NCBI GenBank assembly: GCA_030037905.1
Contig: JASHPX010000313.1
Span: forward strand, 1 to 44,795
Reading direction: 5' to 3'
From: Gammaproteobacteria bacterium
Lineage (GTDB): Bacteria; Pseudomonadota; Gammaproteobacteria; Steroidobacterales; Steroidobacteraceae
Length of the DNA stretch: 44,795 bases
Under the pieces are notes generated by a model. It did no database searches. It was not told the DNA's origin and saw only the letters and a program-made list of their open reading frames with translations. Positions 4,286-32,774 of the stretch are shown here, one piece after another. A program made the position numbers and the translations under genes. Numbering within the stretch: position 1 is the first letter of the stretch; every line of letters begins with the position of its first letter.

Positions 4286-4580
4286 ATTCAATCCTCGCAT
4301 CGCAGATTTTTCCAATGCCTACCCATGACGCCCCCGGGGTCTTGACAGCGACGTGCGGGACGGGCGCCGCGACCCCGCGCAGCGGATGGCAGCGCATGAC
4401 GCTCTACGATCGACGGGATGGTGAGATCGCAGTGGATGAGGTGGAACGAATTCTGATTTGAAGGCTTCACCAGGAATACATGCAGGGCGATCAAACGACG
4501 TCACTTGTGCACCATCAGCGTCATATCAAGGAATCTAGCGCCATGATGCGCGCATCAATGAGCGCTGCGGTCGGACTGCC
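4286..4580. other. Gene-free stretch before the channel operon
   Basis: Nearly 300 bp with no supported gene. A consensus-like TTGACA occurs at about 4342, but no -10 lies at the right distance. A 21-codon plus-strand ORF beginning at about 4396 (MTLYDRRDGEIAVDEVERIL) is too short to call and may be a gene fragment. The promoter for the gene at 4581 must lie here but cannot be pinpointed. Confidence 0.4.
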
Positions 4581-9129: not shown

Positions 9130-9206
9130 CCCGGCGCAGCCCCGTGACCGGTGGTGCCTGCACGATCGCGCCGCGTCTAGTCTGGAGCTGCTCAAGCGCC
9201 GCGACC

Positions 9207-16781: not shown

Positions 16782-17816
16782 TCAGTAGAGCTGGTCGAAC
16801 AGCCCGCCGTCGTCGAAGAACTCTTTCTGGACCTTGCGCCAGCCGCCGAAGGCGCTGACGTTGACCAGCGTCAGATGCGGAAAGCGCGCGGCATAGCGCG
16901 CCTGCACCGCCGGATCGATCGGCCGGTAGAAGTTCTCGGCGATGGTCTGCTGCGCGGCCGGCGTGTACAGGAAGCGTAGGTACGCCTCGGCGAGTTGCTC
17001 GGTGCCGTGGCTGCGGGCGTTCTTGTCCACGACGGCCACCGGCGGCTGCGCGAGCATGGAGATCGACGGCACGACGATCTGGAAGCTACCCGGACCGGCC
17101 TCCTTGATCGCAAGGAACGCCTCGTTCTCCCAGGAGAGCAGCGCATCGCCCAGATGCTCTTGTGTGAACGCGAGCGTCGAGGCACGCGCGCCGGTGCTGA
17201 GTACGACGACGTGGCCGTAGAGCGCCTTGAGGTAGGACTTGATCTGCCCCTGGTCGCCGTGATAGGTGCGTTGCGCATACGCATACGCTGCCAGGAAGAT
17301 CCAGCGAGCGGCGGCGGAGGTCTTCGGATTGGTCGTGATCACGCTGACACCCGGCCTCACCAGATCATCCCAGTCGACGATGTGCTTGGGATTGCCGTTG
17401 CGCACGAGGAATACGATGGTCGAGGTATACGGCGTGCTGTCGTTCGGCAATCGACCTTGCCAGTCGGCCGGCAGCAGCCCGGCCTGATCGTGCAGCGCGT
17501 CGATATCGGAGGCCACGCCCAGGGTGACGACATCGGCAGGCAGGCCGGCGATCACGGCGCGTGCCTGAGCAGACGAGCCGTTATGCGACATCCGGATCGT
17601 GACCGACTGCCCGGTCTTCTGCTTCCAGTAGGCCTCGAACTGCCGATTGATCTGCGCGTAGAGCTCGCGCGTGGCGTCGTAGGAAACGTTCATCAGCGTC
17701 TGTCCGCCCGCGGGCGCTGCCAGCGCGGCCGGCGGTGCGGCGCCGCCCAGCAGCAGCGCTGCCAGCAGCGCGACCGCCGCGCGCGCGGATGATCGGCATA
17801 AATCGTTTGCGTGCAT
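16782..17816 (-). CDS. sbp: Sulfate/thiosulfate ABC-type periplasmic binding protein
   Basis: 344 residues with a signal peptide ending in ALAAP. The mature part starts LMNVSYDATRELYAQINRQF, the diagnostic opening of Sbp/CysP proteins. It continues with MSHNGSSAQARAVIAGLPADVVTL, NPKTSAAARWIFLAAYAYA (the family has NPKTSGGARW) and HLGDALLSWENEA. It should bind sulfate in the periplasm, but no CysTWA-type permease or ATPase gene is in the window. It either uses a transporter encoded elsewhere or has a sensory/porin-coupled role. It lies 80 bp after a porin gene on the same strand, probably co-transcribed. Confidence 0.9.
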   Translation of the reverse strand: MHANDLCRSSARAAVALLAALLLGGAAPPAALAAPAGGQTLMNVSYDATRELYAQINRQFEAYWKQKTGQSVTIRMSHNGSSAQARAVIAGLPADVVTLGVASDIDALHDQAGLLPADWQGRLPNDSTPYTSTIVFLVRNGNPKHIVDWDDLVRPGVSVITTNPKTSAAARWIFLAAYAYAQRTYHGDQGQIKSYLKALYGHVVVLSTGARASTLAFTQEHLGDALLSWENEAFLAIKEAGPGSFQIVVPSISMLAQPPVAVVDKNARSHGTEQLAEAYLRFLYTPAAQQTIAENFYRPIDPAVQARYAARFPHLTLVNVSAFGGWRKVQKEFFDDGGLFDQLY

Positions 17817-17871: not shown

Positions 17872-17911
17872 GACTTCAGAGCGAGTACTGCGACTTCAGA
17901 AGGAGTACTGC
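17872..17911. repeat. 20-bp tandem duplication at the porin 3' end
   Basis: Two adjacent 20-bp units beginning GACTTCAGA and ending GAGTACTGC (17872-17891 and 17892-17911) differ at two bases. The second unit encodes the porin's final QYSF-stop; the first is an untranslated copy just beyond the stop. Confidence 0.75.
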
Positions 17912-19125
17912 GTGTAGATGCCCACCTCGCTGAACTGACCGCTGGTCTTGATGCCGGTGCCGGCGACGGCGGTGCCGCCGATAGTGTACGAGGCATTGCC
18001 GTCGGCGCCGGCGATGGTGACGCTGCCATCGGTCACCTCCTCATGCTTGTAGACCAGCGCCAGATCGAGCGTCGGGAGGACCTCATAGGACGCACCGAAG
18101 TTGTAATAGCGGTCCTGGAGATTCGGATCGTAGTCCTTGCTGAGCTTGGAGTCGTCGTAGCGCCCGAACACCGACCAGCGCCTCAGGAAATTATAGGAGG
18201 CCCAGGCGGAGTAGCCATCCGCGTCATTGCTGACGACCGTGCCGGTCGGATCCTTCGCCGTAGCATTGGTCGCCACCACGACTCCGCCCGGGCCTGACAG
18301 CACCCCGGTGCTGGGGTTCGCGGTCTTGTAGTTCTTGGCGTTGTAGTATTCCCCGCCGAGGCGGAACTGGTTGGTAACCACCGCGGCGGTCAGGTCAAAG
18401 CGCGTGGCGGTGTTGCTGGCGAGATCCGCGGTGGTCTGCGTGATCTGCCCCAGATGTCCGCTGTAGAGGCCGGCGCCGAAGTTCAGCCAGGCGAGCGGCT
18501 TGACGATGAAGGCGCCATCGAAGTCCACGTCCTTGGTGCGCGTCGGATCCTTGTAGCCGCCGCCGTTGAGCCCCGAGACCGAGTAGCTGAAGATGCCGTT
18601 GCCGCCGGCGATACCGCTGGCATTGACTCCCCAGTCCGCGCTGTTGGCGAAGCCGAGCCGCTCGACCTCGGTCTTCTCGATGTAGCGATAGCCGTAGAGA
18701 TTCTGTACGAACGTGATCCACGGATCGTTGTAGGAGCCGGCGTGAACCACGAATGCGTCGTTGACGTGTGCCTGCAGGTAGAGCAGCTTGATGAACAGCT
18801 CGGTGACCCCGCCGCTATTGCTGGTCGTGCTGTTGGTGTAACCCGTGCCCGACGTGCTGCTGATGTACTGTGCGTCGGTGGTCAGATTGGCCGACCAGAC
18901 GTTGTTGAAGGTGTGATCGACGATCAGATAGGCACGCTTGATGTCGAAGCCCACGCCGGTCGGCGCGACATCGTTGCCGTTCTGCTGCTCGTCGATATCA
19001 CTGACATCGGCGTACACCAGGCCGCCGATGGTCGTGTTGGCACCGACGTCGGCCGCCCTGGCCCCTGTGGCCGCGCCCAGGCCCGCGGCCGTCAGCGCCG
19101 CTGCCAATAGAATCCGCTTGTACAT
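17896..19125 (-). CDS. Outer-membrane porin (OprO/OprP-like)
   Basis: About 409 residues from ATG 19125 (MYKRILLAAALTAAGLG; an upstream in-frame start would add 16 residues before the signal peptide). After the signal peptide (cut near ARAAD) the protein is a 16- to 18-strand-like beta-barrel ending in ...YTQYSF, the C-terminal aromatic required for BAM recognition. Blocks such as GFDIKRAYLIVDHTFNNVWSANLTTDAQY, HAGSYNDPWITFVQNLYGYRYIEKTEVERLGFANSADWGV and RWSVFGRYDDSKLSKDYDP resemble phosphate-selective OprO/OprP-type porins. Its position next to the sulfate-binding protein and YeiH argues for sulfate or organosulfur anions as cargo. A pair of 17-bp direct repeats lies 120-180 bp upstream. 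Confidence 0.82.
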   Translation of the reverse strand: MYKRILLAAALTAAGLGAATGARAADVGANTTIGGLVYADVSDIDEQQNGNDVAPTGVGFDIKRAYLIVDHTFNNVWSANLTTDAQYISSTSGTGYTNSTTSNSGGVTELFIKLLYLQAHVNDAFVVHAGSYNDPWITFVQNLYGYRYIEKTEVERLGFANSADWGVNASGIAGGNGIFSYSVSGLNGGGYKDPTRTKDVDFDGAFIVKPLAWLNFGAGLYSGHLGQITQTTADLASNTATRFDLTAAVVTNQFRLGGEYYNAKNYKTANPSTGVLSGPGGVVVATNATAKDPTGTVVSNDADGYSAWASYNFLRRWSVFGRYDDSKLSKDYDPNLQDRYYNFGASYEVLPTLDLALVYKHEEVTDGSVTIAGADGNASYTIGGTAVAGTGIKTSGQFSEVGIYTQYSF

Positions 19126-19244
19126 TAATTCGTGCTCCCAGATCGGTTGATTGTCGCCCGGCCCCGCGCGCACCCGCGTGCGATGAGCACGACGAGTCCC
19201 GCGCGCTGCTTCCCACGGGCACGACCATGGTGCGGGACGTGTCA

Positions 19245-19430: not shown

Positions 19431-19685
19431 TCACTCAGCGACCTCGCACGCCTGCCAGCTCGCGCAACGAGCAGAGCCCCCCACGTAGCGATCGTGCACG
19501 CTGCAGAGTCCATCGGCGGCGCGCACCGCCGCGTACGCGGAGCTGAGGGTCTCGAGCCCCGGCAAGCGCGCCTCGAGCTGGCGTGGCCCGTTCGCGAAGT
19601 GCCGGCACGAGGCGCAGCCGCTAACGCCGGCAGGGCCGGCCGTTGCCTGCCGTCGCCTGCCCTTGCCGTGGGATGTCTGCCTCAC
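19431..19685 (-). CDS. Small cysteine-rich protein coupled to YeiH
   Basis: 84 residues from a GTG that overlaps the YeiH stop (GTGA). There is no other usable start, so the N terminus is tentative. After a basic leader the conserved-looking core is SGCASCRHFANGPRQLEARLPGL, then LSSAYAAVRAADGLCSVHDRYV and SARCASWQACEV. The CxxC plus later Cys and His residues could bind a metal or form disulfides. There is no signal peptide or helix. I do not recognise a named family, but the C-x2-C...GLCxxHDRY arrangement looks like a real small conserved protein rather than chance translation. Translational coupling argues for joint function with the YeiH-type transporter. Confidence 0.55.
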   Translation of the reverse strand: MRQTSHGKGRRRQATAGPAGVSGCASCRHFANGPRQLEARLPGLETLSSAYAAVRAADGLCSVHDRYVGGSARCASWQACEVAE

Positions 19686-21088
19686 CGGAGACCATTCCAG
19701 AAGTGACTGAAAATTTGCGTCGAGAGAACGAAGCCCAGGACCACGTTGAACGCCACGCCGATGCTGAAGGCATAGAAGGGTCGGGTCCCCACCGCCGCCA
19801 GCTCGCGCACGCGCGTCGTCAGACCTATGCTCAGGAACGCGAAGGTGAAGGCCCAGGTGCGCAGCACCTGGATGGGCGCGACCAGGGCCGGCTGCACGGA
19901 GTGCTGGTAGGCGGCATAGCTGTAGCCTCGGGTGACGAACGTGACCAGCGCCGAGGCCACCACGAATCCCAGGACGAACTTGGGGAAGCGCCGCCAGATC
20001 TCCCCGGCGCGCGTGCGCGTGTCGACGCCGGTCGGCTCCCAGCGGGTGGTTGCCACGACGGACAGGACGAATGCCCAGACACCGATCCAAATGTCGCGCC
20101 CGATGACCTTCATGAGCGTGAAGGCGTTGACGGCCGCGTCGGCGCTGCCGGCGATGCCGGGCACGTGGCCCGCGTAGCCACCGTAGGCTTGAGCCGCAGC
20201 GAGACCTGCAGCATCGGCAAACTCGGAGGTACCGATCCAGGCGCCTGCCACGCCCGTGGACAGTCCCAGGGAGCGCGACAGCAGCGGCAGCACGAAGATC
20301 ATGACGATCGCCCACAGCACCACGAGAGAGATGGCGATGGAGGCATCCTGGCGCCTGGCGCCCACCGCGCCCGCCACGGCGATCGAGCCGGAGACCCCGC
20401 AGATCGCCCCGCCGCTACCGAGCACCGCAGCGAGTCGCTGGTCCAGGCCGAAGAAGCGCCCCGCCGCGTAGATGACGGTGAAGGTGAGAACCGAAACGAT
20501 CCCGGCCTGCACGATCGCAACTGGTCCGGCCCACGCGAGCAACGTCAGTGGCAACCCCGCGCCCAGCAGCACGATGCCTGTCTTGATATAGAACTCCACG
20601 CGAAAGGCGGCATCGGCACTCCTCGGCAGGCCCACGGTGTTGGAGATCAGCAGGCCCACGAGCAGCGCCAGCAGCGGTGGCTCGAGGTTGTAGCGCGAGG
20701 CCTCGGCCCATTGGCCGATGAAGTACAGCGCGAGCGCGCCGGCGTAGACGATCAGGAACCAGGGCAGGAACTGTCGCCAGCGGATACCCAGGGACGCCGC
20801 GCCGATACCGAGCAGCAGCGCCCACAGCGCGAACAGCGCCACATATTGCGCGGCATGCGTGCGCAGCTGCGCGAGCACCTCGGCGAGGTGCGTCCACTTG
20901 CGCGGCGCGATCGCGATCCAGGAGATGCTTGCGCCGCTGGCGAATAGCGCCGCCGCCACGGCCACGAGGCCGAGCCCTATCCAGATGGCCCACCAATCTT
21001 CCTTGCCCAGCAGCCCCGGGCGCGCAGTGCGGCCGGATGCCCTCGGCTGCGAGAGTGGTGCACCGGAATGTTCTGCGATTTCCGTCAT
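19682..21088 (-). CDS. yeiH: YeiH/UPF0324-family putative sulfate exporter
   Basis: An inner-membrane protein of roughly 468 residues with at least ten helices. Blocks diagnostic for the YeiH (Cons_hypoth698) family are LLALLVGLLISNT, FYIKTGIVLLGAGLPLTLL, LAAVLGSGGAICGVSGSIAVAGAV, GTSEFADAAGLAAAQAYG and RDIWIGVWAFVLSVVATTRWE. Members are annotated as putative sulfate exporters, some controlled by CysB-like or sulfur regulators; direct transport evidence is thin. Start 21088 (MTEIAEHSG) follows GGACGGG. An in-frame ATG at 21130 is the alternative. It lies downstream of the rhodanese and FAD/NAD(P) genes in the same direction. Confidence 0.85.
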   Translation of the reverse strand: MTEIAEHSGAPLSQPRASGRTARPGLLGKEDWWAIWIGLGLVAVAAALFASGASISWIAIAPRKWTHLAEVLAQLRTHAAQYVALFALWALLLGIGAASLGIRWRQFLPWFLIVYAGALALYFIGQWAEASRYNLEPPLLALLVGLLISNTVGLPRSADAAFRVEFYIKTGIVLLGAGLPLTLLAWAGPVAIVQAGIVSVLTFTVIYAAGRFFGLDQRLAAVLGSGGAICGVSGSIAVAGAVGARRQDASIAISLVVLWAIVMIFVLPLLSRSLGLSTGVAGAWIGTSEFADAAGLAAAQAYGGYAGHVPGIAGSADAAVNAFTLMKVIGRDIWIGVWAFVLSVVATTRWEPTGVDTRTRAGEIWRRFPKFVLGFVVASALVTFVTRGYSYAAYQHSVQPALVAPIQVLRTWAFTFAFLSIGLTTRVRELAAVGTRPFYAFSIGVAFNVVLGFVLSTQIFSHFWNGLR

Positions 21089-21226
21089 GAGTGTGCCCGT
21101 CCATTGGCGCGCGCGTTGAGTGGTGGACATCCGCGGCGGAGCGCCGTACCCGGCGCATCGTGCGGGGGGCTGCAGGCGACGGAGCGCTCCGCCGCGGTGT
21201 CCGATTCGAAACTCGTAGTCGTCAGC

Positions 21227-22732
21227 TTAGCCACGGGCGGTAACCGCGTCGGTGAGCACCGCGTGACAAACCGGTGAGTGGGAGTCCAACGCCGCAGGCC
21301 GCTGGCGCGCGGGCGCCGCCGGCGACATCGCCGCCGATAGGCTCGTGGCGAGCACCGTCGCGAGCTCGCCCACCCGCAGGCGCAGTTCGCCGACCGCGGT
21401 CGCCTCCCAGTACTGAGCCCGCAACATGGGTCCGACATAGAACAGGCTCGTCGCTAGCTGTCCCTGTGCGTCGACGAGTACGCCATGGGGGCCGGTGCGC
21501 ACGCCCAATCCAGTCGCATCCGCAGACGCCAACCCCTCATCGAGCAGCTGACGCCACAGCGGGTCGGCGCTCGACGCGAGCGCATGATCCACGCCGCTGC
21601 ACTCGATGACCCGATCGACCCACAGCTCCTGCAGATCGAGATGCCCGCGCCTGCGCCACAGCGCCACGAGACGCTCGCCGTCGGCGCAGAGCTGCACGAC
21701 GCTGCCGGCGCGCACGCGCAACTGACCGCTCTGCCGCAGGGCCGCGAGGCGCCGGGCGATCACCGGCGGCATGCGGTGGCGGTGAATGTCCCAGTAGATT
21801 CTTGCGTGCCGCAGGAACCGGCGGCGCTCGGGCTCGCTCATGCCCTGCCAGAGCAGCGGCGCCACTTCGCGCACGCGCGTGATCGCCTCGCGCCAGTCCC
21901 CGCCACGCTGTTGCACCGTTTGCACGAGCAAGCGCACTGCCCGCAGCATCTGCCGCGCAGTCGGTCTCGCCAGGCGGCGGCGCAGGTCCACCTCCGGCTC
22001 GAGTACCGCATCGAACGCCACTGTCTGCGCCGTAGGCAGCAGGCCATGGCGCGATAGCGCGAAGATGTGCACATCGGGATTGCGCGCCACGGCCGCGAGG
22101 GCCACATCCACCATCGTCAGACCCGTACCGATCAGCAGCACGGCCCGGTCGGAGGGCGCGACCGCAGCGTCCCTGTAGGCATCGCGCACGTAGGCGCGAT
22201 GATCGAGCACATCGGCGGCATACGCGGGGACTGCGGGAACCGGATAACCACAGGCGAGCACGACCTGGTCGGCGAGCAACGCGCGTTGCTCGAGCGTCAC
22301 GCACAGCCTCCCGGAGGTGGAATCGGGACGCACTGCACTGACTTCACCGCGCAGGCTGTCGAGTCGGATCCAATCTGCGGCGGCCAGCCGCGCGAGCCGC
22401 AGACGCTCCCGCAGGTATTCTCCGTACAGCTGTCGGGGCAGAAAACTGTGGGCGTGTGCCCGCGGCAGCCGCCGGCGCGCGAAGCGGACCAGCTGGGTGG
22501 CATCCTCCGGATCCGCCGACATGCGAGCGGCCGGTACATTGAGCAGATAGGGATACGCGTGCGGCGCGAACGCAACGCCGCAGCCGAGCTGATCCCGCCG
22601 CTCCACCAGCACCAGGTGCGTCGGCGCCGCGGGCGGATGCTGCAACAGGTTTACCGCCAACATCGTGCCGCAGTAGCCACCCCCGATGATGACGATGATG
22701 CGCGGCGGTGTGCTGCTCGCTGCCAAGGCCAT
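21227..22732 (-). CDS. FAD/NAD(P)-binding oxidoreductase-like protein
   Basis: 501 residues from MALAASSTPPRIIVIIGGGYCGTML. The N-terminal Rossmann motif GGGYCG (17-22) and acidic end VLVERR bind FAD. A second dinucleotide motif, VLLIGTGLTMVDVAL, follows at about 200, and the central LNVPAARMSADPED block is typical of the NAD_binding_9 / FAD-NAD(P)-binding family. Homologues accompany siderophore, thiol or nitrogen/sulfur modules, and the electron acceptor is not known. The C terminus (VGPMLRAQYWEATAVGELR) matches the family end. It is probably co-transcribed with the upstream rhodanese (105-bp gap) and the downstream YeiH gene. No signal peptide, so cytoplasmic. Confidence 0.82.
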   Translation of the reverse strand: MALAASSTPPRIIVIIGGGYCGTMLAVNLLQHPPAAPTHLVLVERRDQLGCGVAFAPHAYPYLLNVPAARMSADPEDATQLVRFARRRLPRAHAHSFLPRQLYGEYLRERLRLARLAAADWIRLDSLRGEVSAVRPDSTSGRLCVTLEQRALLADQVVLACGYPVPAVPAYAADVLDHRAYVRDAYRDAAVAPSDRAVLLIGTGLTMVDVALAAVARNPDVHIFALSRHGLLPTAQTVAFDAVLEPEVDLRRRLARPTARQMLRAVRLLVQTVQQRGGDWREAITRVREVAPLLWQGMSEPERRRFLRHARIYWDIHRHRMPPVIARRLAALRQSGQLRVRAGSVVQLCADGERLVALWRRRGHLDLQELWVDRVIECSGVDHALASSADPLWRQLLDEGLASADATGLGVRTGPHGVLVDAQGQLATSLFYVGPMLRAQYWEATAVGELRLRVGELATVLATSLSAAMSPAAPARQRPAALDSHSPVCHAVLTDAVTARG

Positions 22733-22836
22733 GGCGCTCAGCGTAGGGCGCCACCGGTAGCAAGTCGGTAGCAAGCGGGTAGCGGCCGCGTCACGCCCGT
22801 GGCAGGCGCATGCTTCATGCTGCGCTCGCGCGCATC

Positions 22837-23328
22837 TCACGGTCCGGGCGCGGCAGTAGCGGCAGACGGCCGGGCCGCGGGCACTGCGATCTTCGTCAAC
22901 ACCCCACCTTCCCTGACGTAGAGCTGTGCGCCCGCGGCGCCCGCCACTTTGAACCCGTGGCTCGCGAGCAGGTCCGCGGCCCTGCCGGCGCGCGCCGCGT
23001 GGTTCGAGACGGTGACGAGGATGCGGTCGCGCGGTATCCAGGCCAGGCTGTCCGTCAGATCCTTCAGTTGGATGCTCAGGTACACCGGGAAACCGCCGAT
23101 GGCGCTGATCTCGTCGGGCCGGCGTACGTCGATGAACAGTACCTTGCCCGGTTCGGCCAGCAGCTTGTCCAGCTCCGGGCGCGTAAGCACGTGCGCCTTG
23201 GAGGGCGCGCGCCGCACGTGCCCCGTACCCTGTGCCCCCGGCTGCGCGAGCGCCACGGCGGCAGACAGCAGCATCATCATCGTTATCGTCATCGTCGCCA
23301 GCGTGACTGGTAGTTTCATGTTTCTCAT
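22837..23328 (-). CDS. Exported rhodanese-domain protein lacking the catalytic cysteine
   Basis: 163 residues with an N-terminal signal peptide (to about residue 29, AVALAQP). The single rhodanese domain has KVLFIDVRRPDEI, the CH2A-type start, and the Cys-loop position ILVTVSNHAARAGRAADLL. Active rhodaneses have C-x-x-G-x-R there; here serine/asparagine stand in place of cysteine (around S108). The G-x-A continuation and downstream helix are kept, so it is a real domain but probably not a sulfurtransferase. A binding or sensing role is more likely. The start at 23328 has AAGGTGAG upstream; ATG 23319 is an alternative. A sigma-54-type promoter lies about 55 bp upstream. Confidence 0.85.
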   Translation of the reverse strand: MRNMKLPVTLATMTITMMMLLSAAVALAQPGAQGTGHVRRAPSKAHVLTRPELDKLLAEPGKVLFIDVRRPDEISAIGGFPVYLSIQLKDLTDSLAWIPRDRILVTVSNHAARAGRAADLLASHGFKVAGAAGAQLYVREGGVLTKIAVPAARPSAATAAPGP

Positions 23329-23381
23329 CTGCGTGACTCACCTTCGGAGTGGACGGTTGCGCGAGGAGCGCTTGCCTGTAG

Positions 23382-23398
23382 AGCAGCTCGCGTGCCAA
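23382..23398 (-). promoter_or_regulatory. Sigma-54 (-24/-12) promoter of the rhodanese operon
   Basis: The minus strand reads TTGGCACG-N4-CTGCT. The -24 element is a perfect TGGCACG and the GG-N10-GC spacing is exact. Only one base of TTGCW differs. The predicted start of transcription lies about 40 nt before the rhodanese ATG. Confidence 0.6.
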
Positions 23399-23654
23399 CG
23401 ATCACGCCACCGCCGTCCTGCGGCCGCGCGTCGCGCCCGGATTGGCCAAATCTTTGATTCTGCGATTGCCTTCTGTAACTGCCGGGGCCGTTCCTGTGGC
23501 GTGGCTGCCTCGAGCCGACCGCGCGGCGACGGATACGCGAACCGATCCACTGCACCAATAGCAACAGCAACCGCCGCCGCGGTGCTGAATTCGCAGCACG
23601 TGGCGGCCACTCCTGCCGGTAACCGGGCCTGCGCCAGCGGCCTCCGCCGCCCCA
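23399..23654. other. Intergenic region between the TonB receptor and rhodanese genes
   Basis: No supportable gene on either strand. A short inverted repeat GTGCTG / CAGCAC (23582-23599) lies about 190 bp upstream of the sigma-54 promoter, a distance typical of activator sites. The arms are only 6 bp and could be chance. Confidence 0.35.
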
Positions 23655-26483
23655 TCAGTCGAACTTCACGCTGGCTTGCAGGCCGTACCAGGACGGCAAG
23701 CCTGGCGTCCAGCTGTTCCACGTCCGCGCAGTGACGTAGTGATTGTCGAACGCATTCTTGGATACGAAGCTGAGGTCGAATCTGCCGCTCGCGGTGGTCA
23801 GGCCGAGCGAGAGGTTGACGAGACCGTAAGCACCGACCCACGCGTACTCCGAGAGCGATGCATCGCTGTTGAAGCGGCTCTGGTAGTCGTAGTCGAGGTC
23901 GGCGTGAAACAGCTTTCTGCCTACCGGGACGTGGAAGGCGGCGTCGAAGTCGAAGCGCACCTTCGGCGCGTTGGGAAGCGTTCTACCGTCCAGGCTGATA
24001 TAGGGCGGACTGGTGATGTCACCCTCCTCCGCCGGCCTGCTGGCGAACGGATAGCTCTTGTAGATCGCCTCGTTGTACGCACCGGAGAAGCGCAGCTGCG
24101 TATACGGCAGGCCCGCGTAGTCGGTCTCGAGCTCGACGCCCTCGAGCTGCACCCATGGCACGTTGCCGTTGCCCGAGACGTACACCGGCGTGCCGGTATT
24201 GGCCAGCGCCGTGGCGGCCGCATCATAGGTGTAGACGGTCTGCTGGAAGTTGTAGAGATTGTCGAGATAAACATCGGCATTCAGAATCAATGTGTCCCTC
24301 AGCAGATCGTTGTTCACACCGAGCTCGAACGAATTGGAGGTCTCCGGCTCGAGCTGGTAGGCAGTGCCGCCGATGTTCGTCACGCTGGTGATCTGCGTGG
24401 CGCCGGACTTGGCGCCGCGCTGATAGGTAAAATAGGGCGTCACCTCGTCGTTGATCCTGTAGCTCAACGACACGTCGCCGGTCGGCAGCCAGGCGTCGTA
24501 GGGCGTCCCGGTCGCGGGCGAGTACAGGGCGCCGAGAGCGCTCGCCCGCAGCGCCTTGGCGGTGGCGACCTGCAACTGCTGCGCCGGCGTCAGCGCCTCG
24601 TAGGAGACGGCGTTGAAGTACTGCTCGGCTACGGCGTTGGCCAGGGCGACCTGCGCGGCGGTGTTGTTCCCCAGCAGCGCGCCCGTCGCGCTGGAGTTGA
24701 AGCCGCCGAGGATGACATCGTCGATCGACGCCGGATCGAGCGCCGCCCCATAACCCTGGTCGGAGAGCACACCGCTCTGCACGATGGTGCGATACTGGTG
24801 CGTGATGCGCACGCCCACGCCGAGGTCCAGCGGCCGGGTGATGTGCCAGTCGACGTGGCCAAACCACGCCTCGGCTTCGGTATCATCGATTTGCTCGGTC
24901 CCTCGATAAACTCTGTCCTGTGAGTTCTCCATCAGCAGCTGGCCGGGGGCATCGGTGTCGAGTATCGCGTATTGCGCCGCGCTCGCATCCCAGGCGCCCG
25001 CATCCGAGCCGTAGCGGGTGCGGCTGAAGTTGTTGTCATTGTCCGTGAGGTAATACAGGCCGCTTACCCAGTCGACCGGAGCGCCGGCCGCCGAGGTCAA
25101 TCTGATCTCCTGGGTGAACTGGCTGTAGTCGACGATGTAGCCGCCGTCATCCGTGATATCGAACGGGGTGCCGTCGTCGTTCGCCGCGCTGAAGTAGGCA
25201 TCGCGGTAGGCGCTGATCGACTCGAGATCACCGGGCGGCAGCTTCCAGTCGAGCGTGAGGGCCGCGCCTCCGGTTCCGGTGTCGATCGCACCGTTGGCGT
25301 CATTGTCTACCGGATCGGCGAGGTAGTCCGCGTACGAATAACTCGCCTCGGATGTGAACCAGCTGCGCGACAGCTTGCCCACCGGCTGGTTGGCCTGGTT
25401 CACCAGCGTGCCGTCGGCATAGTACTGCGGTGTGGGCAGGTGGAACGTCAGGCCGTTGAGATATTGATTTGCCCGGGGCTGGTAATCGGCGATCAGCAAC
25501 GCAGAGAAGTTCTCGTAGGGCGTCGCGAGCAGCTCGAAGCGCCCCTCCGTGCGATCGGTGTTGACATAGCTTTGCCGCCCGGCGAGCTCCACGAAGCTGT
25601 TGTTGTACTCACCGTCCTGATAATTGCGCTCGAACGCGAAGCGATACGCCAGTAGATCGTCGATCAGCGGACCGCCCGTCGCAGCCTCGGCCAACAGCGA
25701 GTTATAAGTCCCATAGGTGACGGAGACGTCCGTCTCCGGCGTGAAGGTCGGCTTGTTCGTGGTGATGGCCACGGTACCGAGGCTGGAGTTGTAGCCGCCC
25801 TCGCTGCCCTGAGGCCCGCGTGTCACCGAGACGGAATCGATATCGAAATAGTCCAGACCGGTGGACAGCGGTGCGTAGACGTAGCTGACCCCGTCTACGT
25901 CGACGAGGACGCTCGGGTCGATGTTGTCGCCTGCCGCCGTGCTGGCGTTCACTCCGCGCAGCGCGATACCACCCGTACGCGGATTGCCGAAGTCGAATTG
26001 CACGTTGGCGAGGTGCGAGAGGACGTCGCCGATACTGACCTGGTCGAGCGCCTGCAAATCCGCTCCACTGATGATGGACACCGACTTGGGCACATCGTGC
26101 AGTGACTCGAGCTGCTCGAGCGAATTGTCCTTCTCTCCCGTTACCACGACCTCACCGAGACGGCTGTCAGCTGCTGGGTCGGCGCCGGCGTCCGTGTTGA
26201 CGTTGGCGTTGGCGTTGGCGTTGGCGTCGGCAGCCGGCAAGCCGGAGGACCCGGCTTGCGCTTCGGCTGCCGCGGGCGCGGCGGATGGCGCGGCGGCCGT
26301 GGATGGCGCAGCGGCCGTGGATGCCGCGAATACCGCGTTGGACCATGGCACCAGAGCGCCACCGAGCAACGCGATCGCAACCGGCGATACCCTGCGGCAC
26401 CGATTGCCGAGGGAAGGGCGGCGTGGCCCTATGGCCGATCGCCCGTCAGTGAATGGGCCGTGCAAATGGGTCGGCGTCGACAT
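23655..26483 (-). CDS. TonB-dependent outer-membrane receptor
   Basis: 942 residues from ATG 26483 (the preceding in-frame TTG is ignored; GGGAGAG is well placed for the ATG). A long N-terminal region holds a signal peptide (about 35-55, ALLGGALVPWSNAVFAAS) and a low-complexity Ala/Pro/Asn linker. The TonB-box-like sequence GEVVVTGEKDN follows, then the plug (VPKSVSIISGADLQALDQVSIGDVLSHL, ALRGVNAS, VDVDGVSY, VTRGPQGSEGG). The barrel ends in ...WYGLQASVKFD. Plug and barrel resemble receptors for small organics more than siderophores, without proof. It is divergent from the DUF6152 operon, and its own promoter is sigma-54-type, unusual for this family and consistent with a nutrient-scavenging role. 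Confidence 0.93.
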   Translation of the reverse strand: MSTPTHLHGPFTDGRSAIGPRRPSLGNRCRRVSPVAIALLGGALVPWSNAVFAASTAAAPSTAAAPSAAPAAAEAQAGSSGLPAADANANANANVNTDAGADPAADSRLGEVVVTGEKDNSLEQLESLHDVPKSVSIISGADLQALDQVSIGDVLSHLANVQFDFGNPRTGGIALRGVNASTAAGDNIDPSVLVDVDGVSYVYAPLSTGLDYFDIDSVSVTRGPQGSEGGYNSSLGTVAITTNKPTFTPETDVSVTYGTYNSLLAEAATGGPLIDDLLAYRFAFERNYQDGEYNNSFVELAGRQSYVNTDRTEGRFELLATPYENFSALLIADYQPRANQYLNGLTFHLPTPQYYADGTLVNQANQPVGKLSRSWFTSEASYSYADYLADPVDNDANGAIDTGTGGAALTLDWKLPPGDLESISAYRDAYFSAANDDGTPFDITDDGGYIVDYSQFTQEIRLTSAAGAPVDWVSGLYYLTDNDNNFSRTRYGSDAGAWDASAAQYAILDTDAPGQLLMENSQDRVYRGTEQIDDTEAEAWFGHVDWHITRPLDLGVGVRITHQYRTIVQSGVLSDQGYGAALDPASIDDVILGGFNSSATGALLGNNTAAQVALANAVAEQYFNAVSYEALTPAQQLQVATAKALRASALGALYSPATGTPYDAWLPTGDVSLSYRINDEVTPYFTYQRGAKSGATQITSVTNIGGTAYQLEPETSNSFELGVNNDLLRDTLILNADVYLDNLYNFQQTVYTYDAAATALANTGTPVYVSGNGNVPWVQLEGVELETDYAGLPYTQLRFSGAYNEAIYKSYPFASRPAEEGDITSPPYISLDGRTLPNAPKVRFDFDAAFHVPVGRKLFHADLDYDYQSRFNSDASLSEYAWVGAYGLVNLSLGLTTASGRFDLSFVSKNAFDNHYVTARTWNSWTPGLPSWYGLQASVKFD
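26196..26231 (-). repeat. Hexanucleotide repeat in the receptor linker
   Basis: Six consecutive 6-bp units on the plus strand (GTTGAC, four GTTGGC, GTCGGC) encode alternating Ala/Asn residues on the minus strand, just before the TonB-box-like motif. In-frame slippage would lengthen or shorten the linker without inactivating the gene. Confidence 0.75.
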
Positions 26484-26525
26484 CAATGACTCTCCCTGCC
26501 GTCATGTTGATTGGTTGGGCGGGTG

Positions 26526-26542
26526 AGCAAGCGACATGCCAA
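26526..26542 (-). promoter_or_regulatory. Sigma-54 (-24/-12) promoter of the TonB receptor gene
   Basis: Minus strand TTGGCATG-N4-TTGCT: one mismatch to TGGCACG, a perfect TTGCW and exact GG-N10-GC spacing. Transcription would begin about 30 nt before the receptor ATG. Confidence 0.65.
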
Positions 26543-26661
26543 GATGCCCGCGTGTAACCCCGCAGCTTCTCGCGGCCTGTCGGCGCTGCGTTGAAGACAC
26601 GCCTGCGTGCACGCCGACGATTCATCCGGCTGTGTTCACCGCTGCCGGCAGTGCGCATAAA

Positions 26662-26688
26662 GCAGCAGCGCAAACACCATGCTGCTGC
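26662..26688. promoter_or_regulatory. Inverted repeat, candidate activator site for divergent sigma-54 promoters
   Basis: GCAGCAGC and GCTGCTGC are separated by 11 bp. The centre (26675) lies about 135 bp from the receptor promoter and about 155 bp from the DUF-operon promoter, a normal distance for an enhancer-binding protein to serve both. The SfnR-type activator at 30384-31493 is the natural candidate. The remainder of 26543-26827 shows no gene. Confidence 0.4.
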
Positions 26689-26827
26689 GTGCGAAGCAGT
26701 CACTCGGATGCCGGGTTTTCGGCTGCTCGCTGGCGCGGAGCTCGCGGCCGTCACACAGGACAGGCATTTCGAGTACTTAGCGTCGACTGGAATCGTCTGC
26801 GCGGGCGCATCGAAGCGCACCGGCCGG

Positions 26828-26844
26828 CTGGCCTGTCATTTGCA
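26828..26844 (+). promoter_or_regulatory. Sigma-54 (-24/-12) promoter of the DUF6152 operon
   Basis: Plus strand CTGGCCTG-N4-TTGCA: two mismatches in the -24 element, a perfect -12 TTGCA and exact GG-N10-GC spacing. It lies about 80 bp upstream of the first ATG of the operon (26924), facing away from the receptor promoter. Confidence 0.5.
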
Positions 26845-26923
26845 ACATGCGGGTGGAACCGGGCCGGTGAGTTGATGTGGCCCGTTGCATCGCCCGAACC
26901 CATCGAGTTGCGGAGAACCTGTC

Positions 26924-27406
26924 ATGTCGATTCTTCCCGAAAAGCTGCGGCGGCGCTCATCGCGATATTGGCTGCCCGTGGCGACCGTCCTCGGTCTTCT
27001 CGCAGTTGCATCCTCGCCCGCCTCGGCGCATCACGCCTTCGCCGCCGAGTACGATGCAAACATGCATCTGGACCTGATCGGGGTGATCACAAAGGCCAGA
27101 TGGACGAATCCGCACAGCTGGCTCTATTTCGATGTCCGGGACGCCAGCGGCAAGCTGGTCAACTGGGGTGTGGAGTTCGGCGCTCCCAACGCACTCTCCG
27201 GTCGAGGTCTGACCAAGGCTGATCTGCAACCCGGCACTGCAGTCCACATCGTCGGATACCGCTCGAAGAGCGGTCTCAACTATGGGTACGCGGTCGCCAT
27301 CACGCTCGGCGACGGGCGAACCTTCAGGGTCGGGGGTGCACAGGATGCCCCCACGGCGGCCGTGGTCCCTTCCAGGCCTCCTGCCGGCGGCATCGTGAGC
27401 AACTGA
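26924..27406 (+). CDS. DUF6152 family secreted protein
   Basis: 160 residues from ATG 26924 (GGAGA upstream). A signal peptide (LPVATVLGLLAVASSPASAHH) is followed by the family opening HHAFAAEYDANMHLDLIGVITKARWTNPHSWLYFDVRDASGK. The mature region is a small beta-rich fold, with NWGVEFGAPNALSGRGLTKADLQPGTAVHIVGYRSKSG and DGRTFRVGG. This matches DUF6152, a periplasmic OB-like family of unknown function with a conserved His pair at the mature N terminus that could bind metal. First gene of a four-gene operon. Confidence 0.85.
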   Translation: MSILPEKLRRRSSRYWLPVATVLGLLAVASSPASAHHAFAAEYDANMHLDLIGVITKARWTNPHSWLYFDVRDASGKLVNWGVEFGAPNALSGRGLTKADLQPGTAVHIVGYRSKSGLNYGYAVAITLGDGRTFRVGGAQDAPTAAVVPSRPPAGGIVSN

Positions 27407-27437
27407 CCGAAGCAGAGCACGTGCGGGAGAACCGTCC

Positions 27438-29324
27438 TTGAAGAAACCACTCTTGCAGAGCGCCGCTCGCGCGCGGCACGGATGGCACGCAATCGCGGCG
27501 CTATCCGCCACGGTGGGTTGCTTCCTGACCTTATCGAGCGCATACGGCGCCGGCGGCGCCGCAGAGATCCCGCGCCTCGCGAACGGGCGGCCGGACTTCT
27601 CGGGGATCTGGCAGACGTTGAGCGCAGCGGATTACGACCTGGAGGCACACTCGGACCGCACGGACGCGCCCCCCTTCGCAGGAGCGATACAGGGCGGGTC
27701 CATTCCCTACGTGCCCAAGGCACTGGAGCGCAAGCGCAGGAACTTCGCCGCCCGGCTGACCGCCGATCCGCGCCTCGAGTGCTGGACGCTGGGGACCCCG
27801 CGCGGGATCTACTATCCCGAGCCGTTCCAGATTTTCGAGCGCTCCCAGGACCTGACGATCGTATTCCAGTTCGGCGATACGGTCCGAGACATTCATACCA
27901 ACGGCACGCTTCATCCGCTCGACACCGATAATGAATTCTGGCTGGGAGATTCGCGCGGCCACTGGGAGGGGGACACGCTGGTGGTGGACGTGCGTGACTT
28001 CAACGACCAGACCTGGCTCGATCGTGCAGGGGATTTTCACGACGAGGCGCTGCACGTCGTGGAGCGCTGGAAGTTCCTGGACGCCAACACCATCCATTAC
28101 CAGGCGACGCTCGACGACCCCGGCATCTACAGCCGGCCGTGGACACTGCAGATACTGCTCTACCGTCATCTGGAAAAGAATTTCCACCTGATCGAGGACT
28201 ACTGCTACACGCTGGATTACGATCAGTACTACCCCTTTCCTCCGAGCTACCGCCGTCCGGACCCAGCGGGTAGCGCGGAACTCCGTCGCGCTCCCGCTGA
28301 CGGCGATGCTCTGATCGACGCGAGCAGCACTCCGGCGGCGCCGCAGGCACCAAAGGCACCACAGGCACCACGGGCACCACAGGCCTCGGCGGGTCTGGGC
28401 CCGCGATGGGAGAAGACCGTGCCGAAGATCGCTTCGGGAAAGTGGACGGGCAAGCGACTGCCGGACGGTCAACCGGACGTTCAGGGCGATTGGTCCAACA
28501 CCATAGCCAACCAGAACAACTTCACCGACCCGCAGGGCGGGATTCCCGGCGATCCGGACCGCCGCGGCCGCCCATTGGGCCCTCGCGACCAGCGCGCGCC
28601 GAGCCGCGTCAGCGATCCTGCAGATGGACAGATTCCCTATCAGCCGTGGGCGCGGGCCATCCAGCAGAGGCTGCAGGCGAATTTCTTCAATCCAGTCAGG
28701 CCTGAATATATCGAGCCGCTGGATCGATGCGCGCCTGCCGGCATCCCCAAGTCATTCTACTGGCATGGGTTTGAGATCCGGCAGTTTCCCGGTTACGTGT
28801 TGCTGCTGTTCAACTCCGGACACCGCATCATCCAGCTGGACGGCACACCGCACCTGCCGGCGAGCATGAAGCTGTGGATGGGCGATTCGCGCGGTCACTG
28901 GGAAGGCAATACGCTGGTCGTGGATGTCAGCAATCTGAATTCCAAAGCGCGCTTCGGCAGGACCGGCAATTTCGCCAGTGAGAATGTACACGTCGTCGAA
29001 CGCTACGTATTCGACAATAACGGCCGGCGCTTCAACTACGTGGCGACGTTCGACGATCCCACCGTCTACACCCGGGCATGGACCGCCACCATCCCGATGC
29101 GCCGCTTCACGGTGGCCGATCGGCCCAACGAGTGGTCCTACGAGGTCTTGACGGCGAATGCACCGGGTCGCCCGCCCCTAGCGGATCACTACGAGCGCAT
29201 CTGCCAGGAGAACAACGGCGGCTTCGGTCACGTAGCGGCCTCCGCCCCCGCGGTGACGGCAGCGGCGCAGCCGCCGGCGCGCACGCAGGCGCCGACGCAG
29301 ACGCCAACGCAGGCAACGCACTGA
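27438..29324 (+). CDS. Secreted two-domain protein with duplicated PDFSGxW/GHWEG modules
   Basis: 628 residues from TTG (GGGAGA upstream; no nearby ATG). A signal peptide (about 18-38) precedes two copies of one domain. Copy 1 has RPDFSGIW (51-58), LGDSRGHWEGDTLVVDV (169-185) and LHVVERW (205-211). Copy 2 has QPDVQGDW (345-352), MGDSRGHWEGNTLVVDV (481-497) and VHVVERY. They are joined by an Ala/Pro/Gln linker (about 295-316, APQAPKAPQAPRAPQ). Single-domain relatives of about 300-400 residues are common, unnamed, in Acidobacteria and soil proteobacteria. The invariant Trp, His, Glu and Asp residues suggest ligand or metal binding, but I know of no demonstrated function. Lies 31 bp after the DUF6152 gene. 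Confidence 0.75.
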   Translation: MKKPLLQSAARARHGWHAIAALSATVGCFLTLSSAYGAGGAAEIPRLANGRPDFSGIWQTLSAADYDLEAHSDRTDAPPFAGAIQGGSIPYVPKALERKRRNFAARLTADPRLECWTLGTPRGIYYPEPFQIFERSQDLTIVFQFGDTVRDIHTNGTLHPLDTDNEFWLGDSRGHWEGDTLVVDVRDFNDQTWLDRAGDFHDEALHVVERWKFLDANTIHYQATLDDPGIYSRPWTLQILLYRHLEKNFHLIEDYCYTLDYDQYYPFPPSYRRPDPAGSAELRRAPADGDALIDASSTPAAPQAPKAPQAPRAPQASAGLGPRWEKTVPKIASGKWTGKRLPDGQPDVQGDWSNTIANQNNFTDPQGGIPGDPDRRGRPLGPRDQRAPSRVSDPADGQIPYQPWARAIQQRLQANFFNPVRPEYIEPLDRCAPAGIPKSFYWHGFEIRQFPGYVLLLFNSGHRIIQLDGTPHLPASMKLWMGDSRGHWEGNTLVVDVSNLNSKARFGRTGNFASENVHVVERYVFDNNGRRFNYVATFDDPTVYTRAWTATIPMRRFTVADRPNEWSYEVLTANAPGRPPLADHYERICQENNGGFGHVAASAPAVTAAAQPPARTQAPTQTPTQATH

Positions 29325-29346
29325 CTGACACCGCACTGACTGACCC

Positions 29347-29853
29347 ATGACGAGCCTCCATGAGCTGGCGCAGGCGCTGCAGGACTCACGCATCGGAGAT
29401 GCGATCGCGGAATCGCGCTACATGTTCCCGATCTTCGAGGGAACGCACCTGCTGTCGCTGGTGTTCTCCGTCGGGCTGATCTTCCTGACCGATCTGCGAT
29501 TGATCGGCGTCTTCTGGCGCCAGGTTCCCCTCACCGAGGTGCTGCATCAGCTGCGACCCTACATTCTCGGTGGCTTCGCCGTGCTGTTCGTGTCGGGCGG
29601 CCTGGTGTTCTGGTCGGAGGCGGCCACCATCATGGCCAGCCCGCTATGGTCCATCAAGATGGTGCTCGTGGCGGCCGGAGGATTGAATGCCCTGTACTTC
29701 GAGCTGGTGATCGCCAAGCGGCGAGAAGTCGCGGAAAACCACCCGGTATTGCCCTCGAGCGTCCGCTACGCGGGGCTCGCGTCCATGACCATCTGGACGC
29801 TCGTGATCATCTGTGGCCGGCTGCTCGCCTATGTGCCGCGTTGGGGCTCCTGA
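29347..29853 (+). CDS. DUF6644-like integral membrane protein (first copy)
   Basis: 168 residues with four hydrophobic helices: about 32-52 (THLLSLVFSVGLIFLTDLRLIG), 71-90 (YILGGFAVLFVSGGLVFWSEA), 96-118 and 140-160. The Ser-Arg-Tyr/His-bearing first helix (ESRYMFPIFEGTHLLSL) and the WSIKMVLV segment are the hallmarks of the DUF6644 type. The histidines near the membrane faces could ligate heme or metal, an inference only. It follows the duplicated-domain gene by 22 bp and is followed by a second, diverged copy of itself. Confidence 0.7.
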   Translation: MTSLHELAQALQDSRIGDAIAESRYMFPIFEGTHLLSLVFSVGLIFLTDLRLIGVFWRQVPLTEVLHQLRPYILGGFAVLFVSGGLVFWSEAATIMASPLWSIKMVLVAAGGLNALYFELVIAKRREVAENHPVLPSSVRYAGLASMTIWTLVIICGRLLAYVPRWGS

Positions 29854-29873
29854 CCGGTGGGAAGCGCAGCATC

Positions 29874-30347
29874 ATGTCGATACTGCAGGTGCTGAACGAT
29901 ATCCAGCACAGCTCGATCGGGCAGCTCATCGGCGAGTCGAACCATCTGGTCATCGCCGCCCTGCAGGTCGTTCACGTGTTCGGCGTCCTGCTGCTCCTGG
30001 CCTCCCTGACGCTGATCAGCCTGCGGCTGCTGGGCCTGGCTCTCTCCCACTGGAGTCTACCCTCGCTGTCACGCGAGCCGGGCCGCCTGCTTTGGATCGG
30101 TCTGGGCCTGGCAGCAGGGAGCGGGGTGCTGATGTTCATCAGCGGCCCGGCCCACTATTTCTACAATCGCGCGTTCCAGATCAAGATGGTCTGTCTGCTG
30201 TGCGCGCTGGCTGTGCACACGCTCGGCTTCCGCCGGCTCGCCGCGCGCGAGTCCTGCCGCCCGCTTCTCACCCGCGCCGTGGTCGGGCTATCGCTGCTGC
30301 TCTGGTTCAGCGTCGGTATCGCCGGCCGCGCCATCGGCTTCATTTGA
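29874..30347 (+). CDS. DUF6644-like integral membrane protein (second copy)
   Basis: 157 residues, paralogous to the gene just upstream (SSIGQLIGESNHLVIAALQVVHVFGVLLLLASL parallels the first copy's opening). Four helices: about 24-51, 70-90, 96-118 and 134-155. The shared features are the E-S-N/R opening, HVFG/THLLS near the first helix, and the second and third helices followed by AFQIKMVCLL (SPLWSIKMVLV in the other). It has more His residues than copy 1. The last gene of the operon, it ends 37 bp before the convergent SfnR-type regulator. The two paralogues may form a heterodimer. Confidence 0.7.
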   Translation: MSILQVLNDIQHSSIGQLIGESNHLVIAALQVVHVFGVLLLLASLTLISLRLLGLALSHWSLPSLSREPGRLLWIGLGLAAGSGVLMFISGPAHYFYNRAFQIKMVCLLCALAVHTLGFRRLAARESCRPLLTRAVVGLSLLLWFSVGIAGRAIGFI

Positions 30348-30383
30348 TCGGTCAGCCAGCGCGCGGTCACAATCGCCGCCTGA

Positions 30384-31493
<1,110 letters not shown>

Positions 31494-31730
31494 CGGACTC
31501 CTCGCTGCACTCGTGCAATGACCGCGGCCCTCGAGAGGCTAAGAGACTGGCGCCGGGGCGTCGAATAACGATTGCTCATGCCGCCTCGCGATCCGTTATG
31601 TAGCCGAAATGTCACCAAATAGGCACCCCCGATATGCGCCCACTGCGTTGTCAGGGAGCGTGCATTGGATATGATCACAGCGTGGACCGCCGCTGCCGGG
31701 CAGCGCCATGCACGTTCCAAACTCTTGCTC

Positions 31731-32774
31731 ATGAAGCTCCAACAGATGCGCTATCTGGCGGCCATAGTGCACAACGGGCTGAACATGACGGCCGCCGCCA
31801 ACAAGCTGCGCACCTCGCAGCCGGCCCTCAGCAAGCAGATCAAGCTGCTGGAAGAGGAGCTGGGCTTCGACATCTTCGTGCGCAGCGGCCGCACGCTCAC
31901 CGACATCACCCCACCCGGACAGCAGGTCGTGGCGCATGCGATGCGCATGCTGCGCGAGGTGCAGAACATCAAGAGCATCAGCAGCGGGATCAGGGACAGG
32001 GACGGTGGTTCATTGTCGATCGGCACCACGCACACGCAGGCGCGCTACGTGCTGCCGCCGGTGATCGAGCGCTTCCGCAGCGCGTATCCGCGCATCCAGC
32101 TGCATCTGCACCAGGGTACCTCCGAGCAGATCGCCGAGCTGGCGAAGATGCAGCGCCTGGATTTTGCGGTCGCCACCGGTTCGAAAGAGCTGTTCGCGCA
32201 GATGGTGCTGCTGCCCTGCTACCGGTGGCGCCGCCGCATCATCGTACCGCTGGATCATCCCCTGGCGCAGGTCGCCACGCCGACACTGGCGCAGTTGGCG
32301 AGCTTCCCTATCATCACCTACGTCTTCAGTTTCACGGGCCCGTCCTCTCTGCACCAGCAGTTCGCCGACGCCGGCCTGACGGTCGATGTGGCGCTCACGG
32401 CGCGCGACGCCGATGTGATCAAGACCTATGTGCGCCTGAATCTGGGCATCGGTATCGTCGCCGAGATGGCGGTCAATCCCACCGATGACCCCGATCTGGT
32501 GTCGATCGATGCCTCGCACCTGTTTGCGATCCACACGACGTGGATCGGCTTCCCCCGCGGTGCCCTGCTGCAGCGCTACATGTACGACTTCGTGCAGCTG
32601 CTCGCCCCGCACCTGAATCGCCGCTTGGTAGAGTTGGCCGCCGACGCCGACGACGCGCAGGCCGTCGAAGCGCTGTTCAAGGACGTGCCACTGCCGATGC
32701 GCTCGGGGAGCGCTGCCGCCGGGCGGCCAACGCAGATGATCGGCAAGCGACCGGACGTCAATCCAGCGCCCTGA
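31731..32774 (+). CDS. cysB: CysB-family LysR-type regulator
   Basis: 347 residues from ATG 31731 (MKLQQMRYLAAIVHNGLNMTAAANKL), the standard CysB start; in-frame codons at 31665 and 31671 would add an atypical leader. The helix-turn-helix continues TSQPALSKQIKLLEEELGFDIFVRSGR. The effector domain contains GTTHTQARYVLPPVIERFRSAYP, LHQGTSEQIAELA, and ITYVFSFTGPSSL in place of CysB's ITYxxGFTGRS. These regulators sense sulfate/APS or N-acetylserine and activate sulfur-starvation genes. Divergent from the SfnR-type gene with about 240 bp between them, where both promoters and the CysB site must lie; no other gene is seen there. Confidence 0.9.
   Translation: MKLQQMRYLAAIVHNGLNMTAAANKLRTSQPALSKQIKLLEEELGFDIFVRSGRTLTDITPPGQQVVAHAMRMLREVQNIKSISSGIRDRDGGSLSIGTTHTQARYVLPPVIERFRSAYPRIQLHLHQGTSEQIAELAKMQRLDFAVATGSKELFAQMVLLPCYRWRRRIIVPLDHPLAQVATPTLAQLASFPIITYVFSFTGPSSLHQQFADAGLTVDVALTARDADVIKTYVRLNLGIGIVAEMAVNPTDDPDLVSIDASHLFAIHTTWIGFPRGALLQRYMYDFVQLLAPHLNRRLVELAADADDAQAVEALFKDVPLPMRSGSAAAGRPTQMIGKRPDVNPAP

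Follow-up and report, generated by a model that had tools for sequence, protein, structure and literature searches.

SfnR is an activator that Pseudomonas uses under sulfur starvation. Titles cited in PMC13352529 and PMC8234197 present it as a sigma-54-dependent regulator that is under CysB control and acts on sfnFG and sfnA. Here we describe a locus from a member of the Steroidobacteraceae, in which three putative sigma-54 promoters lie near the gene of an SfnR-type enhancer-binding protein (EBP). The DNA analysed, referred to below as the window, is one entire contig of 44,795 nucleotides (JASHPX010000313.1, our C72); its parent genome (GCA_030037905.1; 4.5 Mb, 403 contigs) is given as 93.5% complete. 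The locus resembles the Pseudomonas system in its sigma-54 sites, in an EBP of the same clade that likewise has no sensor domain, in a near-identical 18-bp dyad (CTGYTG-N6-CARCAG, common to the window cluster and the Pseudomonas sfn genes) and in a CysB-family gene nearby. It differs in that the window genome has no SfnG scoring over the model cut-off, and the putative targets are a TonB-dependent receptor, a DUF6152 protein, a repeat protein and a rhodanese-fold protein whose catalytic cysteine is missing; the centre letters of the dyad are C/G in place of T/A, and the dyads form tandem pairs 31-32 bp apart.

The tandem enhancers bound by NtrC at glnA are two sites ~32 bp apart. The dyads of the window are similarly placed, about three helical turns from each other and upstream of a sigma-54 promoter, but the dyad is a different one and the window EBP has no receiver domain. 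SftP, found with AtsK in Pseudomonas putida S-313, is a TonB receptor for sulfate esters that operates under LysR-type control alongside an alkylsulfatase. The outer-membrane receptor of the window would likewise be produced to obtain sulfur from an organic source, whereas its predicted control is by sigma-54. In the open-licence literature searched, DUF6152 was mentioned nowhere, and among the matches listed no description of such a regulon was found (SfnR combined with sigma-54, TonB, regulon or organosulfur). We judge it quite probable that the three sites are the sigma-54 promoters of a single regulon under the SfnR-type EBP, acting by the mechanism and in the organosulfur capture proposed below.

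Putative sigma-54 promoters and their enhancer dyads

The sequence-only reading of this DNA had reported three sites with exact GG-N10-GC spacing, preceding the rhodanese-like gene, the TonB receptor and the DUF6152 gene. All three were found at the coordinates and on the strands reported, and in front of those genes (Table 1). Elements with this spacing recur at conserved positions in relatives, as would fit sigma-54 promoters, and an rpoN gene is present in the genome. Scored (out of 14) against background, they proved to be real but unremarkable by score alone: GG-N10-GC occurs 967 times in this window of 66% GC, and five sites score 12 or more (Markov mean 1.37), two of which are promoter sites. 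Motif score alone was discarded as promoter evidence because such matches are too common, and the promoter matches by themselves would not carry the claim of a regulon. A tighter sigma-54 pattern, composed after the three sites were known, had 70 matches in the 4.5-Mb genome versus 29 for a reversed control; three of the 70 are the promoter sites. An additional score-11 site lies inside the divergent gap between the TonB and DUF6152 genes (26730-26746, + strand). The DUF6152 sites of relatives, with TTTGCA or CTTGCA ends, look like the site at 26828 and not like this one.

Twenty-one promoters were assembled from the window and its relatives, and four were dropped as having an intergenic region in common or being near duplicates, which left 17 for the motif search and the spacing statistic. 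The palindromic motif search found an 18-bp dyad, CTGCTG-N6-CAGCAG, upstream of the promoters. When the gap between half-sites was set to 6, 14/21 promoters contained a match in which 9 or all 10 of the letters agreed (Markov mean 0.43, maximum 3 in 300); gaps of 2-5, 7, 8, 10 and 11 yielded 0 to 2 promoters. A gap of 9 also gave 14/21 at this threshold; it was rejected as a separate element, since the best gap-9 match overlaps the gap-6 dyad in 20 of the 21 promoters, shifted onto it by the CTG repeat, and the two are therefore one element. A spacing of 31-32 bp between the best dyad and the second-best was observed in 12 of the 17 promoters, against a control mean of 0.29 and a maximum of 3 over 2000 shuffles.

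Exactly two pairs in the window exceed the threshold. The centre of the first is 177 bp from the rhodanese-like sigma-54 site; that of the second, in the divergent gap, is separated from the TonB and DUF6152 sites by 134 and 152 bp, respectively. An inverted repeat between the divergent genes had been pointed out in the sequence-only reading; it is real and consists of two dyads, while the pair upstream of the rhodanese-like gene had gone unmentioned. For a blind prediction the dyad model was retrained after dropping three of the 21 promoters, then the three of the window (15 left), then those of its genus (10 left). Under this model, built from ten promoters of other genera, the two pairs took the top two ranks of the 44.8-kb window, with sums of 34.0 and 28.4; the pairs that followed at the same spacing reached 15.6, overlapping the first, and 9.9. 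The genome holds 72 dyads, and when the 50 of them that were listed were compared by eye with the 70 promoter matches, only the window contig had a dyad within 350 bp of such a match.

Conservation and linkage to the activator gene

Of 148 relatives, 39 gave matches to the 628-aa repeat protein encoded after DUF6152, and the strongest matches led to orthologous clusters in genomes G015 and G006. Sigma-54-like sites stand at matching places in loci L062 (13007-13023 and 13367-13383), L063 (691-707, 1016-1032 and 4146-4162), L067 (556-572) and L068 (2057-2073 and 3084-3100). The TonB site (26526) has equivalents in L062, L063, L067 and others, the DUF6152 site (26828) in L062, L063, L068 and L180, and the rhodanese-like site (23382) in L068 (3084-3100) and L180 (13668-13684).

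Close homologues of the EBP (E<=1e-100) were sought in 396 genomes of the order and amounted to 13 genes in 11 genomes, that of the window included. In their neighbourhoods (L180-L188) sigma-54-like sites precede TonB receptors, sulfate-binding proteins, a rhodanese-like gene and DUF6152, and a promoter with a dyad pair was found near 10 of the 13 EBP genes. No dyad pair was found at five repeat-protein loci without an EBP in the fetched stretch (L064-L066, L069 and L070).

A systematic count was made of genes preceded by both a site (score >=11) and a dyad pair (score >=17), dropping matches that missed the first 35% of the gene or had less than 200 bp upstream. L068 was placed among the EBP-linked loci on the strength of its genome, G006, which carries the EBP, although the gene is not visible on that contig. 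The combination was present before 17 of 28 target-type genes (TonB, DUF6152, rhodanese-like, sulfate-binding protein) at EBP-linked loci. It was present before none of 46 homologues of other window genes at these loci (two had a score-11 site and no pair), and before none of seven target-type genes at loci without the EBP, one of which has a site. The anchors used overlook the sites of some receptors (L182, L184, L186 and L188), and the count of 17 is therefore lowered. Less circular tests are the blind ranking in the window and the receptor promoter of G309. The latter, fetched after the model had been made, combines a score-12 site (L208, 3964-3980) with the highest-ranking dyad pair in a stretch of 12 kb. 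The same stretch has a cytochrome c gene (4186-4692) with a score-12 sigma-54-like site (4772-4788) and a weaker dyad pair upstream.

The activator and its Pseudomonas relatives

The EBP gene that had been reported 4-6 kb away was confirmed. Pfam recognised only an AAA+ domain and a Fis-type HTH in the protein, and no N-terminal sensor domain. An EBP encoded at the sfnG locus of P. gingeri is 55% identical to it over residues 5-346; that locus also encodes an SfnB that passes its cut-off, together with proteins resembling methionine transporters. In a phylogenetic tree, 15 proteins, among them the window EBP and that of the P. gingeri locus, were joined with 100/100 support against 23 other EBPs, the latter taken from 79 others among the matches listed. 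The window EBP belongs to the same clade as an EBP encoded with SfnG and SfnB; the position of the P. gingeri protein inside the clade has weak support (88/43).

Perfect CTGTTG-N6-CAACAG sites number nine in six Pseudomonas genomes, versus two for the reversed pattern. One, in G406, begins 195 bp before sfnG, and the other two Pseudomonas genomes with sfnG have weaker dyads before it. Three sites (G407, G409 and G410) lie within 2.2 kb of below-cut-off matches to the SfnG model, two in G405 lie ~3 and ~7.5 kb from such a match, and the remaining three are near no SfnG-model match. The dyads near weak matches in G405, G407, G409 and G410 are candidate additional SfnR targets.

A scan of genome contigs for EBPs gave 80 listed loci, mostly of distant EBPs; the only close one among those listed is L087, from the Rhodocyclaceae (58% identity). 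None of 17 other window proteins found a match there by tblastn, and its ten Pfam-scanned open reading frames appear unrelated to the window genes. The one dyad pair of L087 (14080-14129) is strong and lies close to where the contig ends, with no score-11 sigma-54 site beside it.

Sulfur-related genes

The CysB reported nearby is present as a CysB-family regulator, which is encoded next to the EBP and scores just below the CysB-model cut-off (Table 1). In L184 a sulfate-binding protein, CysT, CysW and CysA all exceed the NCBIfam cut-offs for sulfate transporters, and the sulfate-binding protein gene sits behind a sigma-54 site and a dyad pair; in L183 a TauE/SafE gene is near the EBP. Divergent from the L184 transporter genes is a gene for a thiamine-diphosphate enzyme (8642-10558), which passed no NCBIfam cut-off among those shown.

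SfnG (TIGR04021) was searched for in 15 genomes, with G383, G067 and G378 outside that search, and exceeded the cut-off in three, all of them Pseudomonas. It stayed below cut-off in the window genome (best 31.6 bits, cut-off 383) and in the seven EBP-bearing relatives searched. Control of an SfnG monooxygenase, which marks the SfnR dimethyl sulfone regulon, therefore appears to be no part of this one. The earlier statement that no known desulfurisation enzyme is present stands for SfnG, the only model tested; TauD, AtsK and sulfatases were not searched for. A sulfur role of the regulon is likely nevertheless, and is supported by the genes themselves: the sulfate-binding protein, CysTWA behind the same elements in relatives and the CysB-family neighbour.

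Proposed mechanism and alternative explanations

The sequence-only reading had put forward a sigma-54 regulon and, as an inference, its control by the SfnR-type activator. Both gain support: the promoters are conserved in relatives, the enhancer was predicted blind, the activator gene is linked and the EBP tree joins its product to the Pseudomonas protein. The sequences show the promoters, the dyads, their spacing, the linkage and the EBP ancestry, and the three promoters, with their matching enhancer, are probably switched on together by this SfnR relative. The activator would be the EBP encoded 4 to 8 kb from the promoters. Since it has no sensor domain, its amount is likely the signal, probably set by CysB under sulfate shortage, as for SfnR. 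Dimers of the EBP would occupy both CTGCTG-N6-CAGCAG dyads of a tandem pair, which are separated by about three helical turns. They would then form an active AAA+ oligomer that reaches the sigma-54 RNA polymerase at -24/-12 through DNA looping and opens the promoter. The pair in the divergent gap would act on the TonB receptor gene as well as on the DUF6152 operon, and the second pair on the rhodanese-like, FAD and YeiH genes, if these form one operon. We infer this binding, the expression, the extent of the operons, the sulfur signal and the substrate.

The targets would be the TonB receptor, DUF6152, the calycin-like repeats and the Cys-less rhodanese-fold protein, instead of SfnG, as the conserved sites support. 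Their products may capture and process an organic sulfur source, with the receptor in the outer membrane, the DUF6152, calycin-like and rhodanese-fold proteins acting outside the cytoplasm, and the DUF6644, flavoprotein and YeiH-like proteins following. As a tentative extension, which we regard as possible though short of likely, this could be a new organosulfur route under an SfnR-type sigma-54 switch. In it the receptor and extracytoplasmic carriers (the calycin-like repeats, an OB-like DUF6152 and a Cys-less rhodanese-fold binder) would deliver a bulky or hydrophobic sulfur compound to a desulfurising enzyme, which would be either the PF13454 flavoprotein or one of the cluster's DUF proteins; to name the flavoprotein as that enzyme is a guess. 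The regulon would offer a DNA signature for SfnR-type regulons outside Pseudomonas, namely a sigma-54 site with tandem CTGYTG-N6-CARCAG dyads 31-32 bp apart, and would link DUF6152, DUF6644, the PDxSGxW repeat protein and the Cys-less rhodanese-fold protein to sulfur shortage, a condition that experiments can test.

Several observations weigh against this reading. Three EBP loci (L182, L186 and L188) have the promoter with single or differently spaced dyads, and 11 of the 28 target-type genes at EBP-linked loci have no site-plus-pair combination. Random 400-mers from the same loci have it in 1.5% of cases, real promoters among them, and the systematic count is partly circular because the dyad model was trained on most of the same promoters. 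The DUF6152 gene of G309 (L210) and one receptor of G367 (L209) are without both elements. Within the window, the gene of the sulfate-binding protein lacks its own combination of sigma-54 site and dyad pair, and a CysB-family gene adjoins only 3 of the 13 EBP genes. The sigma-54 contact loop reads AAFTGA in the EBPs of the window and of G015 (L062, 8450-9535), versus GAFTGA or GSFTGA in the other 13 members of the clade.

One alternative keeps the regulon and this EBP as its activator but replaces sulfur shortage as the signal: an SfnR-type activator would have been recruited for some other nutrient, imported by the TonB receptor. The lack of an SfnG over cut-off in the window genome and the seven relatives would fit it, as would several targets without a known sulfur role, the DUF1549, DUF1553 and DUF1501 genes adjoining the G309 and G367 receptors, and the missing catalytic cysteine of the rhodanese-fold protein. 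We consider it unlikely, given that relatives have genes for a sulfate-binding protein and CysTWA downstream of such elements, that a CysB-family gene adjoins the EBP, that the EBP is of SfnR ancestry and that Pseudomonas has the dyad near sfnG. The promoters might instead depend on sigma-54 and be activated by another EBP, for the genome has 16 PF00158 matches, at least 11 of them strong EBP genes, a further point against our assignment. This is very improbable, as promoter-plus-dyad units occur near the EBP homologue at 10/13 EBP genes and at 0/5 loci without it, and the near-identical dyad is found near Pseudomonas sfnG together with an EBP of the same clade. Finally, DNA this rich in GC might produce the GG-N10-GC sites by chance, with the genes using other promoters, but this is scarcely credible: 18 window sites score 11 or more (Markov mean 9.85) and 15 of them are not the promoter sites, which also counts against us, but conservation in relatives, the blind dyad prediction and the pair-spacing statistic speak for the three, and the single sigma-70-like match in 22700-32000 precedes the CysB gene and none of the three target genes.

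Gene products of the window

Table 1. Promoter elements, dyads and genes of the window
Feature	Position	Strand	Details
Sigma-54 -24/-12 element	23382-23398	-	TTGGCACGCGAGCTGCT; score 12/14; before rhodanese-like gene
Sigma-54 -24/-12 element	26526-26542	-	TTGGCATGTCGCTTGCT; score 12/14; before TonB-dependent receptor
Sigma-54 -24/-12 element	26828-26844	+	CTGGCCTGTCATTTGCA; score 11/14; before DUF6152 gene
Tandem dyad pair	23550-23599	.	putative enhancer of rhodanese-like promoter; start-to-start 32 bp; dyads 23550-23567 CTGCACCAATAGCAACAG and 23582-23599 GTGCTGAATTCGCAGCAC
Tandem dyad pair	26651-26699	.	putative enhancer common to divergent TonB and DUF6152 promoters; start-to-start 31 bp; dyads 26651-26668 GTGCGCATAAAGCAGCAG and 26682-26699 CTGCTGCGTGCGAAGCAG
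SfnR-type EBP	30384-31493	-	Pfam: sigma-54 AAA+ domain from residue 35, Fis-type HTH
CysB-family LysR regulator	31731-32774	+	divergent from EBP; NCBIfam CysB model 427.8 bits, cut-off 436
TonB-dependent receptor	23655-26486	-	likely ATG at 26483; Pfam Plug 46.6 bits, cut-off 23.9
DUF6152 protein	26924-27406	+	Pfam 93.4 bits, cut-off 27; signal-like N-terminus
628-aa repeat protein	27438-29324	+	two related repeats (PDxSGxW type) that align with each other
DUF6644 membrane protein 1	29347-29853	+	Pfam 28.4 bits, cut-off 27
DUF6644 membrane protein 2	29874-30347	+	Pfam 36.9 bits, cut-off 27
Exported rhodanese-fold protein without catalytic Cys	22837-23328	-	
FAD-NAD(P)-binding protein (PF13454)	21227-22732	-	Pfam 110.9 bits, cut-off 21.8
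YeiH-like membrane protein (PF03601)	19682-21130	-	Pfam 145.6 bits, cut-off 24.5
425-aa protein	17896-19173		no Pfam match
Sulfate/thiosulfate-binding protein	16782-17816	-	NCBIfam 392.9 bits, cut-off 288

The gene called a rhodanese in the sequence-only reading does encode a rhodanese fold, but its Pfam score (18.4 bits) is below the cut-off of 22.2 and its catalytic cysteine is replaced by serine. The replacement is found in all six homologues aligned, where the loop VSNHA is conserved, and the serine aligns with the loop cysteine of 5ve3. The protein is probably without sulfurtransferase activity, and its family is possibly one of binding proteins. The PF13454 and YeiH-like genes are likely in the same operon; against the NCBIfam YeiH model the latter's product scored 67.8 bits, below the cut-off of 232.6.

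The 628-aa protein belongs to no Pfam family. Its first repeat was modelled as a calycin/FABP-like barrel (mean pLDDT 73.9), with a weak Foldseek match (best E 4e-4, target TM ~0.55-0.6), and the predicted structure of DUF6152 is OB-like (mean pLDDT 74.3), with a match weaker still (best E 1.5e-3). The two repeats are separate adjoining genes in L063, L180, L188 and L067; the single-frame gene of the window may be a fusion or a slip of assembly or sequencing. In two other loci, from G309 and G367, the DUF6152 and repeat proteins are replaced beside the TonB receptor, by DUF1549/DUF1553 genes in L181 (15657-18278) and by DUF1549/DUF1553 and DUF1501 genes in L182 (2672-6438).

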